This document shows, piece by piece, positions 31,055 through 37,646 of a stretch of 64,000 nt of DNA. The stretch is from Salibacteraceae bacterium. GTDB lineage: Bacteria; Bacteroidota; Bacteroidia; Flavobacteriales_G; Salibacteraceae. Within the stretch, counting starts at the first letter, position 1, and each line of letters starts with the position of its first letter. Under the pieces are notes generated by a model. That model saw only the letters and a list, made by a program, of their open reading frames with translations, searched no databases and had not been told where the DNA came from. A program made the position numbers and the translations under genes. The stretch covers positions 202,806 through 266,805 of the forward strand of contig JAGYJZ010000002.1 in NCBI GenBank assembly GCA_018401875.1, read 5' to 3'.

Positions 31055-33259
31055 ATGAAACACAGATACTCATCGATTTTAATTTTTCTTTCAATCCTTG
31101 TGAGTTCGAGCCTTTCGGCTCAACTTTCTTATGTTTTCACATCTGCAGGCGCCACTGGTTCAGTAGGGCCAACGCAAGGTCAACTGAACACTGAATACGC
31201 AAGCACAAACCTTCAAGGAGCAGTTACCTCCGCGAATGGTATTCAAATCTGGACAGTTCCCTCAAGTGGCTTATACAGCATTGAGGCTTATGGCGCTCAA
31301 GGTGGCGGAGCCAATGGAGGCTTTGGAGCTAAGGTTTCAGGCGAGTTTTTACTGAGCGGTGGAGACATACTTCACATTGTGGTTGGACAACAAGGCCTTA
31401 CCGACCCAGCTTCTGCTACTGGAGTTGGCGGTGGCGGTGGTAGTTTCGTTGTAAAAAGCCCCGCCATAGCAGTTGGTGATATTTTGGTTATTGCTGGTGG
31501 CGGTGGCGGTGCTGCAAGCACTATTCATCCCGATCGTGATGCCTCAGCCACCAATAACGGCAACAATGGTTTAGTTGCTGCGGGTGTTTCTAACCCAGAT
31601 GGTGCTGGGGGCACTGGTGGAAATGGAGGTAACAAATCCGTATCAGGATGCTCTTTAGATAGAGGTGCTGGTGGTGGTGGTTTCTTAACAGATGGAGGCA
31701 GCATCTGTCAATCTGCTGGAGCAGCAAATGGAGGTAGTTCTTTCTTAAATGGCGCTCAAGGTGGCACAGCTAGTGGAGCTGGTTCTATTGGTGGATTTGG
31801 CGGTGGTGGTGCTACTTGGTCAACAGGTTTCCGAGGAAGCGGAGGTGGTGGTGGCTACTCTGGTGGCGGTGCTGGTCAAATAAACGCAGACTCGCCAAAC
31901 CATGCAGGTGGTGGCGGTGGATCATACAATAGCGGATTAAATCAATCAAACACTGGTGGCTTTAATGCTGGAAATGGTCAAGTTGTTATCAGCCCACTTT
32001 CTTCACCTATACCGAATGAAGCAGGAATGGCTGGAATTGACTCCCCAACTCTTCCAACGTGTGCTGGAACATATCCATTACAAGTTACTGTGGCGAACTT
32101 CGGAAACAACCAAATCACATCTCTGGATGTTCAATGGACATTAAATGGAGGTCCGGTAAGCACTCAGGCAGTAACTTCCGTAATTGACACGTCTGGTGGT
32201 GCGGGCTCAAGTACTGCATCTGTCAACCTCGGAAACATAACAATTTCTGATTCTACAGAGATTAAGGTATGGACAAGTCTCCCTAATGGGGTGCTTGATA
32301 CTTCAAATTCAAATGATACTATACTATTGTCGTTTTTCGCTTCTAACCCTATTTTAAATTTGCCTGATGTGGGAATATGCGATGGTAATTTCGCCATCTT
32401 GGATGCTGGGAGCCAATGGGCTTCTTACGCTTGGAATACTGGCGAAACTTCACAACAAATTGTTATCCTAGCACCTGGAACTTACACCATTTCGGTTGTT
32501 GACACATTCAATTGCCCTGCAACTGATCAAATTATTGCTTCGATAGCCAATAGTCCGAGCATTAACCTCGGACAAAACATTATAGGCTGTGACCAACGTG
32601 TTCTTAATGCAGGAAATGCAGGAGGAAGCTATCAATGGAACACAAATGATACAACCCAAAGCATTGTGGTTACTGAAAGTGGTGTTTACTTAGTTACTGT
32701 AACGACAGCGGCAGGATGTGTAGGTTCTGATGGTGTGGCTGTAGAAATTTATGATTCTCCGTCTATCAACCTTGGCGACAACTTCTCTATTTGCACAGAT
32801 CTGAATGAGTCAAGATTACTTGCCGTTTCAGGCTCATTTGTTTCTTATAATTGGAGCACTGGATCAAATCAGAGTTCAATTATCATTGATGGAAATCAAG
32901 GACTTCAAAATGGCCCCAACACAATAACACTAGGGGTTATAGACGAAAATGGTTGTCAGGGAAATGACACCATAGTTGCCACTATCAAAACGTGTATTCC
33001 TGCAGGTATTGACGAAGCAAACCAAGATGAGCAACTACTTCTTTATCCGAACCCAGCTACCGATTTGCTCACCGTGAGTTCATCATCTCCTATTATACAA
33101 CTCGAAATCATGGATATTACTGGGCGAGTAGTCTTGAGTTCAGCTAGTCGATCAACTCTCACAAGATCAATTGACGTAAGTCAATTGAAAGCTGGTTCCT
33201 ACATGGTCAAGGTTAAGACTAATGCTACTTCAACATTCCAAACGGTGATCATAAAATAA
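31055..33259 (+). CDS. Secreted T9SS protein with ALK/LTK-like glycine-rich domain
   Basis: 734 residues from the ATG at 31055; the track start is a TTG two codons earlier. Signal peptide 1-22. Residues about 24-306 form a glycine-rich domain whose opening YVFTSAGATGSVGPTQGQLN, then GIQIWTVPSSGLYSIEAYGA, ILHIVVGQQG and the repeated GGGGG runs follow the order of the glycine-rich region of animal ALK/LTK receptors (Pfam Gly_rich) as I remember it. A CARDB-like beta-sandwich follows (about 321-428), then three or four Ig/PKD-like repeats of about 70 residues (each with an NTGE/NTND core and SGVYLVTV-like strand), and a T9SS type A sorting domain from LLLYPNPATD (about 662) to the end. Predicted outer-surface or secreted adhesin-like protein. 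Confidence 0.85.
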   Translation: MKHRYSSILIFLSILVSSSLSAQLSYVFTSAGATGSVGPTQGQLNTEYASTNLQGAVTSANGIQIWTVPSSGLYSIEAYGAQGGGANGGFGAKVSGEFLLSGGDILHIVVGQQGLTDPASATGVGGGGGSFVVKSPAIAVGDILVIAGGGGGAASTIHPDRDASATNNGNNGLVAAGVSNPDGAGGTGGNGGNKSVSGCSLDRGAGGGGFLTDGGSICQSAGAANGGSSFLNGAQGGTASGAGSIGGFGGGGATWSTGFRGSGGGGGYSGGGAGQINADSPNHAGGGGGSYNSGLNQSNTGGFNAGNGQVVISPLSSPIPNEAGMAGIDSPTLPTCAGTYPLQVTVANFGNNQITSLDVQWTLNGGPVSTQAVTSVIDTSGGAGSSTASVNLGNITISDSTEIKVWTSLPNGVLDTSNSNDTILLSFFASNPILNLPDVGICDGNFAILDAGSQWASYAWNTGETSQQIVILAPGTYTISVVDTFNCPATDQIIASIANSPSINLGQNIIGCDQRVLNAGNAGGSYQWNTNDTTQSIVVTESGVYLVTVTTAAGCVGSDGVAVEIYDSPSINLGDNFSICTDLNESRLLAVSGSFVSYNWSTGSNQSSIIIDGNQGLQNGPNTITLGVIDENGCQGNDTIVATIKTCIPAGIDEANQDEQLLLYPNPATDLLTVSSSSPIIQLEIMDITGRVVLSSASRSTLTRSIDVSQLKAGSYMVKVKTNATSTFQTVIIK

Positions 33260-33341: not shown

Positions 33342-36300
33342 ATGAATTCAAACTTCTACCAAAAAATACAGCACGCACTTTGTGTGATCATAGCTGGAAT
33401 ATTGGTGCTGAGCCCAACATTTGGATCAGCTCAAAGCAATGATCGAAATTTAGCTCAAGTGAGCAACAACAATCAACATTTACCTTGGTCTAAGGAGCAA
33501 CTAGGAAAAGAATTGGTGGACCTCAGAAGCAGGACTACCAAACAATATGAGACAAACAACGGAACTGTGAAGGCATTCTCTGCTCCGAACTCATTGCACT
33601 ACCAAGATGCATCAGGTAACTGGAAAGACATTGATTTGACCATTTCAAATAACACTTCGAATAAGTTTGCTTCGCATCCTTATTTGAATATTGAAAATGC
33701 ATTTCAAACGTATTATGCCGCTGATCCTTTTTCTGGGTCGGTGATTACAGAAACTTCGGAAGGAGTATTCTACGAATCAATTCAAAGTGTTTATACGGTT
33801 GATGCAAATAATCAAGTCATATACAACTTCGAATCTTCTTCACCTTCTGAAGTTGTTGTTATCGGAAGTTCAATTGTTTACACAGATGTCTTACCCTTTA
33901 CCGACATCAAATACACGCAAAATAGTGATGGTAGAAAATTTGATTTAGTAATTAAAACCGAGGAATTCACAGCATTACTAGGAGCTACTAGCGAAAAAAT
34001 TGTGATTGAAGAAAAAATGACTTTACCCGAAGGTTGGGTGGCATCACAAGGCGATCATGGAATTGACCTTCACTCACAAAATGGAGTTTGGATTACCAAC
34101 ATACCCACTCCATCAGCTTTAGAAACCGTTTCAAGCACTAAAGAATACGCTTCTGAAAATGAGTTGAAAACCGAAGGTGAAATAACCTTCGAGCAAATTG
34201 GCAATGAATTAACGCTTAAAACTTCTTTCTCAACAGAGTGGATCAAAAACGCAGAAAGAGTTTATCCAATATCGCTTGACCCAACTATCAACGTTACTCC
34301 TACTAATACAACCTTTTGGACAGGAAGACAAACATCGACTAATGGTACAAAGCAAACTGGCTTTCTTCGACTTACTAATACAATTTCATCTACTTGGGCC
34401 AAATTCGATTTATCGACAGTCCCCCCAGGCGCTCAAGCAATAAACGCCACATACCACGGATATCATTACACCACAACTGGAACACCAGATAAAGTAACCA
34501 AGATCGTTGGTCTCGGAACTACAGATCCTGTTACGGCAGCAAACGCAACCCTTTTTGGGGACATTAACACGAACGGCCCAACTTTTAACTCTAACTACAT
34601 TTATGGAGGATCAGTTTATCAATGGAGAAGCGGTGCGTTAAACGCCACTGGATTAACTAACATTGCAAACGATATATCGACCCAAGGATGGACGGCTCTG
34701 GGTTTCGCATGGTTGAGTGGAACTGCAACTTTTCAGTATCATTATGGACACAATGCCACAGGTGTCGGAGTTCCATTAATTTGTTACCTTGAACTAGAGT
34801 ACGCATTAGTCACAGCAGAGAATGATGCTGGAGTGGCTTCATTTGACTCACCAGTTTCACCAATTTGTCCTGGCACTGAGACCGCAGTTGTAACTATTCA
34901 AAATTTCGGAATCAACCAAATCAGTCCAGTTACGGTGAACTGGACTGTAAATGGAGCTGTGCAAACACCTGTGGTCTATACGGGCACCCTTGATACAATT
35001 AACGGCACGGGAAATAACACTGCACAAGTTACACTAGGCACCTTCTCAGTGAATGCGCCTGTTCAAATTGAAGCATGGACATCGATGCCGAATAATGTAG
35101 TAGACACTGTAAATAACAATGACTCAGTAATTGTCAATTTGGCACCAGCATTAAGTGGTAACTATATTATTGGGGCATCTGGCTTAGCGGACTATCCAAC
35201 GTTCAATGCAGCCGCAGATGATCTTGAATCATTTGGTATTTGTGGTCCTGTAGTTTTTGATGTAGAGGACGGACTGTACAATGAACAAGTTGAGATACCC
35301 CAAATAGTTGGTGCGTTCGATACGAATACCATTACATTCAGATCTATCAATCAGGATAGTTCATTGGTTGAACTCGAATATCCATCAACAAATGCCGGTG
35401 ACAACTACATTTTGAGACTAAGCAACGCGAATAACATAATATTAGAACATCTCACTTTGCATAATACTGGTGGAATTTATTCTACAGTAGTGGATATAGT
35501 TGGAAATGCGGACAGTAATAGAATTAGCAACTGTCACCTTTACAACAATTACTCAGGCACCAGCACTTTTGGTAGCGTGATATTTACGGGTACAGGAAGT
35601 AATCCAGAGTACAACACTTTCAACAATAACCTCATAGAAGGAGGGAGTTACGGTGCGTATTATTATGGCACGAGCACTACCATCTTAGCACGTGGAGTTG
35701 TATTTGAAAACAACATGTTTTTAAACCAATATTTCTATGGCGCAAGTATTTATTACCTTGACGCTCCAATCTTTAAAAACAATACGGTTACATCTAATTC
35801 AACCTATTCGTTTGGATATGGCTTCTACGCAGGTTATTGTGACAATGAAATGCTCATAGAGGGAAATCATGTTTATACGAGTGAAGGCACCGTCTGGCCC
35901 AGATACGGCATGTATCTTTGGTATAATGATGGCACGGCTGGTACTCCTGGGAAAACCATTAATAATATCATCACATTAGGTACGAGTTCAACGGGTTCGG
36001 GAGAAGCATATTATGGGCTTTATCCATATTACAATGATTTTCAAGAGTTCACGAACAATACCATAACCTTGCGCAATGGTAGCGCTACGTCAAGGTCTGT
36101 ATACACCTATTATTGCGATTTTTATGACTTCAAAAATAATCTTGTAGTCAACTATGGTGCTGGTGTTGCTGTGGATTACAATTATGGAACCCCATATGTA
36201 TTGGATAATAATGCATTTTACGCAGCCACACCCTCCTTGGCTGAATACGATGGTGTCACAAACATCACATCATTGCAAGACTTGCAGGCAGCATCAAATC

Positions 36301-37646
36301 AAGAGGCGAACAGTGTAAGCACAGATCCAGTATTTGTTGATACCGTGGGTGGTATTCACTGCAACGCTATAATAAACAATGCAGGTCAAGTGTTGCCCAA
36401 CGTAATAGATGACTTTTACAACAACCTTCGCACGTCATCTCCTGATATCGGGGCAGTAGAGTATATGCCTGGCGGAGTCATATCACTTGGTTTAGACTCT
36501 ATTCTTTGCCAAGACTCACTTTTGCTTGAAATATTAGAACCATTTACCAGCATCATTTGGAACGTAAGTGGAAATCCAATTGGAAATACTGGCAGTTACT
36601 TGCTTACAACAAATGGCGAAGCAGAAAGCTTTTCCATAAATATTGTAGCCACCACACAACACTGTGGAACTGCGTATGCGAGTGACGACATTATTTTAGT
36701 GCCAAATATTTCACTGGACGAATCAGCGCACTTATGCCCTTCAGAGACCCTTGAATTAGATGCGCAAGGAGGATTCAACAGCACTTATACGTGGTTTCCT
36801 GTAAACTCAACCGCAAGCTCAATCGAGGTTAGTGAAGCTGGGATTTACATTGGTCAAAAAAATGAGTTTGGTTGTATTTCAACAGATACAATCATTGTAA
36901 CTGCTTCACAAGCACCAAGTATTGATAACCAAGAAGTTTGTTCAAGTGATCTTCCTATTCAATTGGATGCAACGGTTAACGGTGGTAATTCATACAACTG
37001 GAGTGCTGGTAGTTCAACAAATACTGCTGTAAATAGCATTTCAGCTGGTGGTTCTTACACTATTTCAATTCAAGACATCTATGGCTGCGATTATGTGCAC
37101 GCTTTTGATCTTGAGGAAATAGACATTCCTTCACCATTAATTACCGCTTCAGTGGTAAGTGGCAATGCATATACTTTCGTAGGCGGAAGTTCCAATAGTG
37201 CAGGAAGTAATGCAACCTATACATGGTCTGTTAGCCCAGGCGGTGCCACGTTCGTAGGACAGGTGTTCACCTATATTTTTCCTTGGAGTAATTCTGGTGA
37301 AGCGTCTTACACGGTTTCATTAAGTGTAGCTAATGATTGCGGTGAAGGATCGACCACTCAAACGGTAACTCCCAGTGCGACTGGCATCAACGACCTTGAT
37401 ATCGCAAATATGGTTAGTGTTTACCCAAATCCTGTAAACGAGATACTCAATGTAGTATTCCCTGCATCACAAGCCGACATAAGCATGAGTCTAATGGATT
37501 TGACTGGACGGGTAGTTCTAAGTCAAAATTTCAACAACTCTTACATTTTAAACCTAAATGTTTCTTCTATCGCATCAGGTTCATATATGCTTCAAATAAG
37601 TTCAAGTGACTTAGGCACATTTACTAAGCAAATTATTGTAAGGTAG
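33342..37646 (+). CDS. Large secreted T9SS mosaic protein with parallel beta-helix
   Basis: 1434 residues. Signal peptide about 1-31 (IIAGILVLSPTFGSAQS). Residues about 60-320 contain a region starting FSAPNSLHYQDASGNWKDID that resembles the N-terminal segment of WapA/RHS-type surface proteins, followed by a DNRLRE-like beta domain (GFLRLTNTISSTWAKFDLS, about 330-490). A CARDB-like domain (about 493-600) is related to the one in the preceding gene. Residues about 605-1044 form a Tyr/Asn-rich right-handed parallel beta-helix (repeated NN-I/F-N-N turns), ending SPDIGAVEYMPGG. Two to three Ig/PKD-like modules follow, then a T9SS sorting domain from SVYPNPVNE (about 1358). Role unknown; possibly a carbohydrate-binding or adhesive surface protein. 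No catalytic motif is recognised. Confidence 0.83.
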   Translation: MNSNFYQKIQHALCVIIAGILVLSPTFGSAQSNDRNLAQVSNNNQHLPWSKEQLGKELVDLRSRTTKQYETNNGTVKAFSAPNSLHYQDASGNWKDIDLTISNNTSNKFASHPYLNIENAFQTYYAADPFSGSVITETSEGVFYESIQSVYTVDANNQVIYNFESSSPSEVVVIGSSIVYTDVLPFTDIKYTQNSDGRKFDLVIKTEEFTALLGATSEKIVIEEKMTLPEGWVASQGDHGIDLHSQNGVWITNIPTPSALETVSSTKEYASENELKTEGEITFEQIGNELTLKTSFSTEWIKNAERVYPISLDPTINVTPTNTTFWTGRQTSTNGTKQTGFLRLTNTISSTWAKFDLSTVPPGAQAINATYHGYHYTTTGTPDKVTKIVGLGTTDPVTAANATLFGDINTNGPTFNSNYIYGGSVYQWRSGALNATGLTNIANDISTQGWTALGFAWLSGTATFQYHYGHNATGVGVPLICYLELEYALVTAENDAGVASFDSPVSPICPGTETAVVTIQNFGINQISPVTVNWTVNGAVQTPVVYTGTLDTINGTGNNTAQVTLGTFSVNAPVQIEAWTSMPNNVVDTVNNNDSVIVNLAPALSGNYIIGASGLADYPTFNAAADDLESFGICGPVVFDVEDGLYNEQVEIPQIVGAFDTNTITFRSINQDSSLVELEYPSTNAGDNYILRLSNANNIILEHLTLHNTGGIYSTVVDIVGNADSNRISNCHLYNNYSGTSTFGSVIFTGTGSNPEYNTFNNNLIEGGSYGAYYYGTSTTILARGVVFENNMFLNQYFYGASIYYLDAPIFKNNTVTSNSTYSFGYGFYAGYCDNEMLIEGNHVYTSEGTVWPRYGMYLWYNDGTAGTPGKTINNIITLGTSSTGSGEAYYGLYPYYNDFQEFTNNTITLRNGSATSRSVYTYYCDFYDFKNNLVVNYGAGVAVDYNYGTPYVLDNNAFYAATPSLAEYDGVTNITSLQDLQAASNQEANSVSTDPVFVDTVGGIHCNAIINNAGQVLPNVIDDFYNNLRTSSPDIGAVEYMPGGVISLGLDSILCQDSLLLEILEPFTSIIWNVSGNPIGNTGSYLLTTNGEAESFSINIVATTQHCGTAYASDDIILVPNISLDESAHLCPSETLELDAQGGFNSTYTWFPVNSTASSIEVSEAGIYIGQKNEFGCISTDTIIVTASQAPSIDNQEVCSSDLPIQLDATVNGGNSYNWSAGSSTNTAVNSISAGGSYTISIQDIYGCDYVHAFDLEEIDIPSPLITASVVSGNAYTFVGGSSNSAGSNATYTWSVSPGGATFVGQVFTYIFPWSNSGEASYTVSLSVANDCGEGSTTQTVTPSATGINDLDIANMVSVYPNPVNEILNVVFPASQADISMSLMDLTGRVVLSQNFNNSYILNLNVSSIASGSYMLQISSSDLGTFTKQIIVR

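Follow-up and report, generated by a model that had tools for sequence, protein, structure and literature searches.

An open reading frame of Salibacteraceae bacterium encodes a 734-residue protein whose N-terminal ~295 residues are, as judged from sequence comparison and structural modeling, a true homologue of the ligand-binding region of the animal receptors ALK and LTK. The gene lies in the 64,000-nucleotide stretch of DNA that was analysed (the window). In ALK and LTK this module (TG/GRD) binds cytokine ligands, and ALK is a major cancer gene. In the bacterial protein the glycine-rich domain (GRD) directly follows the signal peptide, and the whole is probably (at roughly 60%) a displayed adhesin or ligand-binding tip, a reading in which we infer both the binding role and retention at the surface. 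The parts of the protein, and the gene downstream of it, are as follows.

31055 to 33259 (start 31049/31055), + strand: complete ORF, 734 aa, with signal peptide, ALK-type GRD, Ig-like stalk, and type IX secretion system (T9SS) type A sorting domain.
31055 to 31120, + strand: predicted signal peptide, aa 1-22, MKHRYSSILIFLSILVSSSLSA, assigned by eye from the sequence.
31124 to 31402, + strand: TNF-like half of the GRD, aa 24-116; ALK match at E 8e-17 with low bias, PF12810 at 25.2 bits.
31403 to 31954, + strand: glycine-rich half of the GRD, aa 117-300; second ALK domain match of 42.9 bits (profile), within the Foldseek span.
31955 to 32005, + strand: closing strand of the TNF-like sandwich, NTGGFNAGNGQVVISPL, aligned to ALK ..VMEGHGEVNIKHY.
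32066 to 32314, + strand: CARDB-like module, aa 338-420; sub-threshold Pfam CARDB match, likeness to the neighbouring T9SS protein.
32342 to 33019, + strand: candidate PKD/Ig-like stalk, aa 430-655; weak Pfam K319L-like_PKD match, likeness to the neighbour's C-terminal region.
33041 to 33256, + strand: T9SS type A sorting domain, aa 663-734; PF18962 at E 3.3e-17, TIGR04183 at 2.5e-17.
33342 to 37646, + strand: downstream T9SS protein, 1434 aa, with CARDB-like, Ig-like, and sorting modules and no GRD.

A phmmer search of the PDB with the protein returned ALK at E 8.3e-17; because the best-matching stretch (aa 20-115) precedes the polyglycine and carries a bias of 0.5, the match cannot be put down to the glycine runs. 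A profile made from 22 GRD relatives, this protein included (alignment A1, also the source of the AlphaFold2 model), had significant matches in the PDB solely to ALK, LTK, and Caenorhabditis elegans SCD-2 (E 1e-34 to 1e-11; reference structures 7nx1, 7lrz, 7n00, and 7lir); beyond these there was one chain at E 7, and the phage proteins Pam3 gp24 and S16 gp38 gave no sequence match in this search. In the reverse direction, the first 98 residues of the ALK fragment, which end before its long polyglycine, found 153 prokaryotic or phage domain matches, the best at 66.8 bits and this protein at 56.2 bits; 200 composition-preserving shuffles reached a maximum of 13.2 bits. The TNF-like half contains an FTSAGATG..GPTQ opening followed by GIQIWTVP, GLYSIEAYGA, and DILHIVVGQQG, and shares with ALK, LTK, and SCD-2 the GPTQ opening and the GIQ-W-VP, YxIxxxGAxGG, and VGQ-G blocks. 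The block order that the first-pass annotation had read as ALK-like (F-T-x-x-G-A-x-G-x-x-GPTQ, GIQIW-VP--G-Y-I--YGA, D-L-I-VGQQG, then GGGGG runs) is indeed collinear with human ALK, and the collinearity runs end to end, through the closing G-G-V-I strand.

The Pfam model of the family, PF12810, gives a result that depends on the length of the stretch submitted: the N-terminal 115 residues pass (25.2 bits against a cut-off of 24.5), but a 322-residue stretch scores 7.1 bits, so the PDB phmmer and profile searches are taken to decide the homology. The loss of score on longer stretches is probably due to composition-bias correction. The PF12810 match begins at aa 70, downstream of the GPTQ block, and a scan of the A1 members (31115-32020 for this protein) detected 3 of the 22 at E ≤ 0.01; many GRDs of this long type are likely to be unannotated, since the Pfam model loses such domains. 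Whole-protein Pfam and NCBIfam scans likewise did not reveal the homology to ALK, which short fragments and profiles did, nor did single-sequence scans of viral, phage, and plasmid collections. All 22 A1 members match PHROG 22713 and 7388 (best E 2e-37 and 6.5e-18), phage-encoded families that lack an annotated function.

AlphaFold2, run on A1, predicts the GRD with a pLDDT of 90.1 and a pTM of 0.91 (mostly 89-98 pLDDT in the TNF-like half). A Foldseek search of the PDB with this model gave 21 matches at E ≤ 0.001, the top 21 of the search, and all are GRDs of ALK, LTK, or SCD-2 (best E 3.8e-15, probability 1.00), with TM scores of 0.63-0.69 to ALK/LTK and 0.53 to SCD-2; the next matches were the Bxb1 tail tip (E 0.011) and the Pam3 fibre (E 0.22), and S16 gp38 (6f45) is not among the Foldseek matches listed. 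The model contains the TNF-like sandwich and the glycine-rich fold. Its alignment to ALK-type GRDs covers nearly the whole domain, which implies a hexagonal polyglycine bundle; the polyglycine runs of aa 117-300, with loops between them, are predicted to form a bundle of polyglycine-II helices. Both an HMM match and a matching fold were found, and the ALK/LTK-like domain named in the first-pass annotation is borne out by phmmer, profile, and AlphaFold2/Foldseek alike. That the likeness reflects convergence or glycine-composition bias in a generic glycine-rich repeat protein might be suggested by the low complexity of the glycine half and by Pfam's rejection of the longer query, but the explanation deserves next to no credence: it is refuted by the shuffle control (56-67 bits for the 98 residues before the long polyglycine, against at most 13), the Foldseek match, and the full-length collinearity, and some prokaryotic or phage members share the Cys pair of ALK.

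The protein is nevertheless a domain homologue of ALK and not an ALK receptor, since on comparison of the sequences it lacks the helical insert and the EGF-like, transmembrane, and kinase parts of ALK, ending in a T9SS domain instead; Pfam and NCBIfam scans found neither a kinase nor an EGF domain in it. The helical insert is a segment of ~30 residues that in ALK follows VGQQGED, ahead of the first polyglycine run, and it is absent from all eight aligned prokaryotic or phage sequences (this protein and seven others). The Cys pair of the ALK GPTQ block (C, 12 residues, C) is replaced in this protein by A and L. Both cysteines occur in 24 of 155 non-redundant prokaryotic or phage relatives; their joint presence gives a Fisher p of 2.6e-8 uncorrected for relatedness, and the coupling loses its significance once relatedness is corrected for (7 independent pairs, median p 0.25). 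Two ALK residues that we take to contact the ligand or to be mutated in tumours, H694 and R753, lack conserved counterparts in this protein, so binding of an ALKAL-type ligand is not expected.

The host contig (267 kb) is part of a 2.6-Mb genome that is 82% complete. The closest named relative (80% identity) is a Flavobacteriales MAG (L034), and the gene is flanked by what we take, from their ORF sequences, to be homologues of murA, dnaJ, and alaS; a eukaryotic contaminant is therefore very unlikely. Beyond the GRD, the T9SS sorting domain proposed in the first-pass annotation was recovered by both the Pfam and the TIGRFAM model, and the proposed fusion to CARDB-like and Ig-like modules stands in part. 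The Ig/PKD-like character of the middle region is weakly suggested by the matches given above; the CARDB match stays below threshold (14.5 bits against 22.7), and the module is 44% identical over 89 aa (E 5e-18) to part of the adjoining T9SS protein. That 1434-residue neighbour may also contain a parallel beta-helix.

The fold had been described in the first-pass annotation as unusual and animal-linked, and the link to metazoans did not hold: phages and a number of prokaryotic phyla carry GRDs as well. Among GTDB genomes 64 loci were detected, the majority in Bacteroidota, with others in Myxococcota, Proteobacteria, Gracilibacteria, Marinimicrobia, and archaeal MAGs, where bins may contain stray contigs, and a scan of IMG/VR gave 78 viral loci. 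The long type with the GPTQ block is represented in Bacteroidota, Myxococcota, Proteobacteria, archaeal MAGs, and the 78 viral contigs. A search of 100 genomes, made up of relatives and the host genome itself, found homologues in 19, with up to 12 per genome; in the same search several genomes of the host's own genus had none. Of 296 good Bacteroidota genomes sampled evenly, 11 had any match, with only one match reaching the GPTQ block. The long GRD type is patchy in Bacteroidota, and with such a distribution the domain is evidently dispensable.

There are two subtypes of GRD, a long, ALK-like type with the GPTQ block and a short type that begins near the Q-VP block, as the PF12810 model does, and the host genome carries both. 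Its short-type representative is a separate protein:

G000:C11:24504-26384 (L001:1381-3261): second GRD protein of this genome, in which SprB repeats come after a short-type GRD; the contig end truncates it.

PF12810, whose Pfam name is ALK_LTK_GRD, recognises this second protein at E 4e-39; its GRD is recorded at 131.7 bits, and a paralogous GRD in the genome at 135 bits. Two transposase-like ORFs, identified by eye, precede it. The genome also holds a paralogue of the long-type GRD (G000:C9:966-1913, L023; 79% identity over 314 aa). An ORF from base 889 of L042, in a MAG labelled Chryseobacterium gleum, is still open after 3842 aa, and four or more long-type GRDs stand in tandem in it, together with other modules; a 2291-aa ORF with three GRDs (L059) resembles it.

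In phages the domain keeps its relation to ALK: one phage GRD (L141) is modeled at pLDDT 88 with a TM of 0.72 to the ALK GRD 7lrz, and a profile in which 22 of the 27 rows are viral matches ALK at E 1.4e-35. Neighbouring genes encode tail fibre, baseplate, or virion structural proteins. The GRD lies at the C-terminal end in 31 of 85 complete phage ORFs, and 30 of the 85 are little more than the domain, near-identical records being in part counted repeatedly. At the ends of phage tail-fibre-type proteins the GRD probably works as a binding tip. The tail fibre gp24 of phage Pam3 has a TNF-like base and a glycine-rich tip of packed extended glycine strands, which is proposed to bind the host receptor, and gp25 is its chaperone (PMC9608196). 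The combination of TNF-like and glycine-rich parts in gp24 (7yfw) is like that of the bacterial GRD, with a weak fold match (the E of 0.22 given above). In one phage locus (L142:2052-6745) three GRD proteins alternate with proteins of ~150-160 aa (PHROG 13558/4998); these are suspected, by analogy to gp25 and gp24 of Pam3, to be fibre-specific chaperones. In public records some phage proteins bear the name "receptor protein-tyrosine kinase" or "ALK tyrosine kinase receptor" (for example BFVD A0A8S5PNX1, A0A8S5QTR7, and A0A385EC16, and OQ999401.1, L177:5548-12300), names that likely stem from the GRD match and not from a kinase.

The Salibacteraceae protein would be exported by Sec and then by the T9SS, and its type A sorting domain would probably keep it attached to the outer surface, where the Ig-like stalk would carry the GRD at its free end. 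The TNF-like sandwich may provide the socket in which a slab of packed polyglycine helices sits, and a ligand, perhaps a glycan or a surface protein, could be bound by the loops at the end of the slab or by a face of the sandwich. The genome has 93 matches to T9SS sorting domains; two SprA families gave no match in this 82%-complete assembly, where control searches were silent too. Among complete cellular ORFs the GRD is N-terminal in 28 of 53, and 21 of these 28 end in a T9SS-like motif. SprB repeats are known from gliding adhesins; T9SS export is common to the SprB-type adhesins (PF13573) and the present protein, and SprB repeats are found on the second GRD protein of the genome but not on this one. 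Within a close group of relatives the GRD is 77-87% identical, with dN/dS of about 0.06-0.08 where dS is not saturated, and the stalk of the present protein is 39-42% identical to those of the others; constraint therefore falls on the GRD, and any ligand that it has probably does not vary. The usual terminal position of the GRD, the phage copies in tail genes, the SprB fusion, and the constraint on the domain together favour an adhesin or binding tip.

The main rival explanation, which we consider unlikely, is that the GRD, inert or self-associating, serves as a slab in a cell coat or matrix or in surface hydration, without a specific ligand. The GRD of the close group is conserved throughout, whereas the tip of the Pam3 fibre is hypervariable, which makes a structural or self-binding role possible; purifying selection is strong over the whole domain, loops included, and tandem GRDs occur in giant proteins. 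That the GRD is terminal in most proteins and is encoded in phage fibre-type genes speaks for recognition instead. T9SS cargo is either anchored or released, and a secreted, released binding module or enzyme accessory would fit the latter route, but with no enzymatic domain found in Pfam and NCBIfam scans of the protein this appears improbable beside a displayed adhesin or ligand-binding tip.

As to origin, in a tree of 137 rows that includes human ALK the ALK branch is long (1.96) and lacks a supported neighbour, and because ALK is left unplaced no direction of transfer is claimed. Acquisition of the bacterial GRD from animals, perhaps to mimic or intercept ALK-family signalling, would agree with the clear homology, and the unsupported place of ALK in the tree gives it some room; it is very improbable, however, given that prokaryotic and phage copies are numerous and diverse and come mostly from environmental MAGs or viral contigs, that none of those aligned has the helical insert, and that the residues with presumed roles in ALK are not conserved here. 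Tentatively, and at less than even odds, the ligand-binding module of ALK may derive from a surface-binding module of prokaryotes or phages, long in type and with the GPTQ block, that was captured by animals and gained the helical insert, bacteria such as this one having retained the adhesin tip.

The link between these proteins and ALK is already implied in the name of PF12810 and in some GenBank records, and the phage proteins named as kinases imply that annotation pipelines have met the match. According to a 2016 study of a fungus, no function could be inferred for PF12810 (PMC4859500). In a literature search of partial coverage, where absence is not proof, no paper discussing prokaryotic ALK-type GRDs was found. 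With full-length domain homologues known from bacteria and phages, the origin of the ALK module becomes directly testable, and structural work gains natural, insert-free versions of the domain. The homologues also suggest a binding-tip function for phage and Bacteroidota proteins whose present records give no function or wrongly call them receptor tyrosine kinases.
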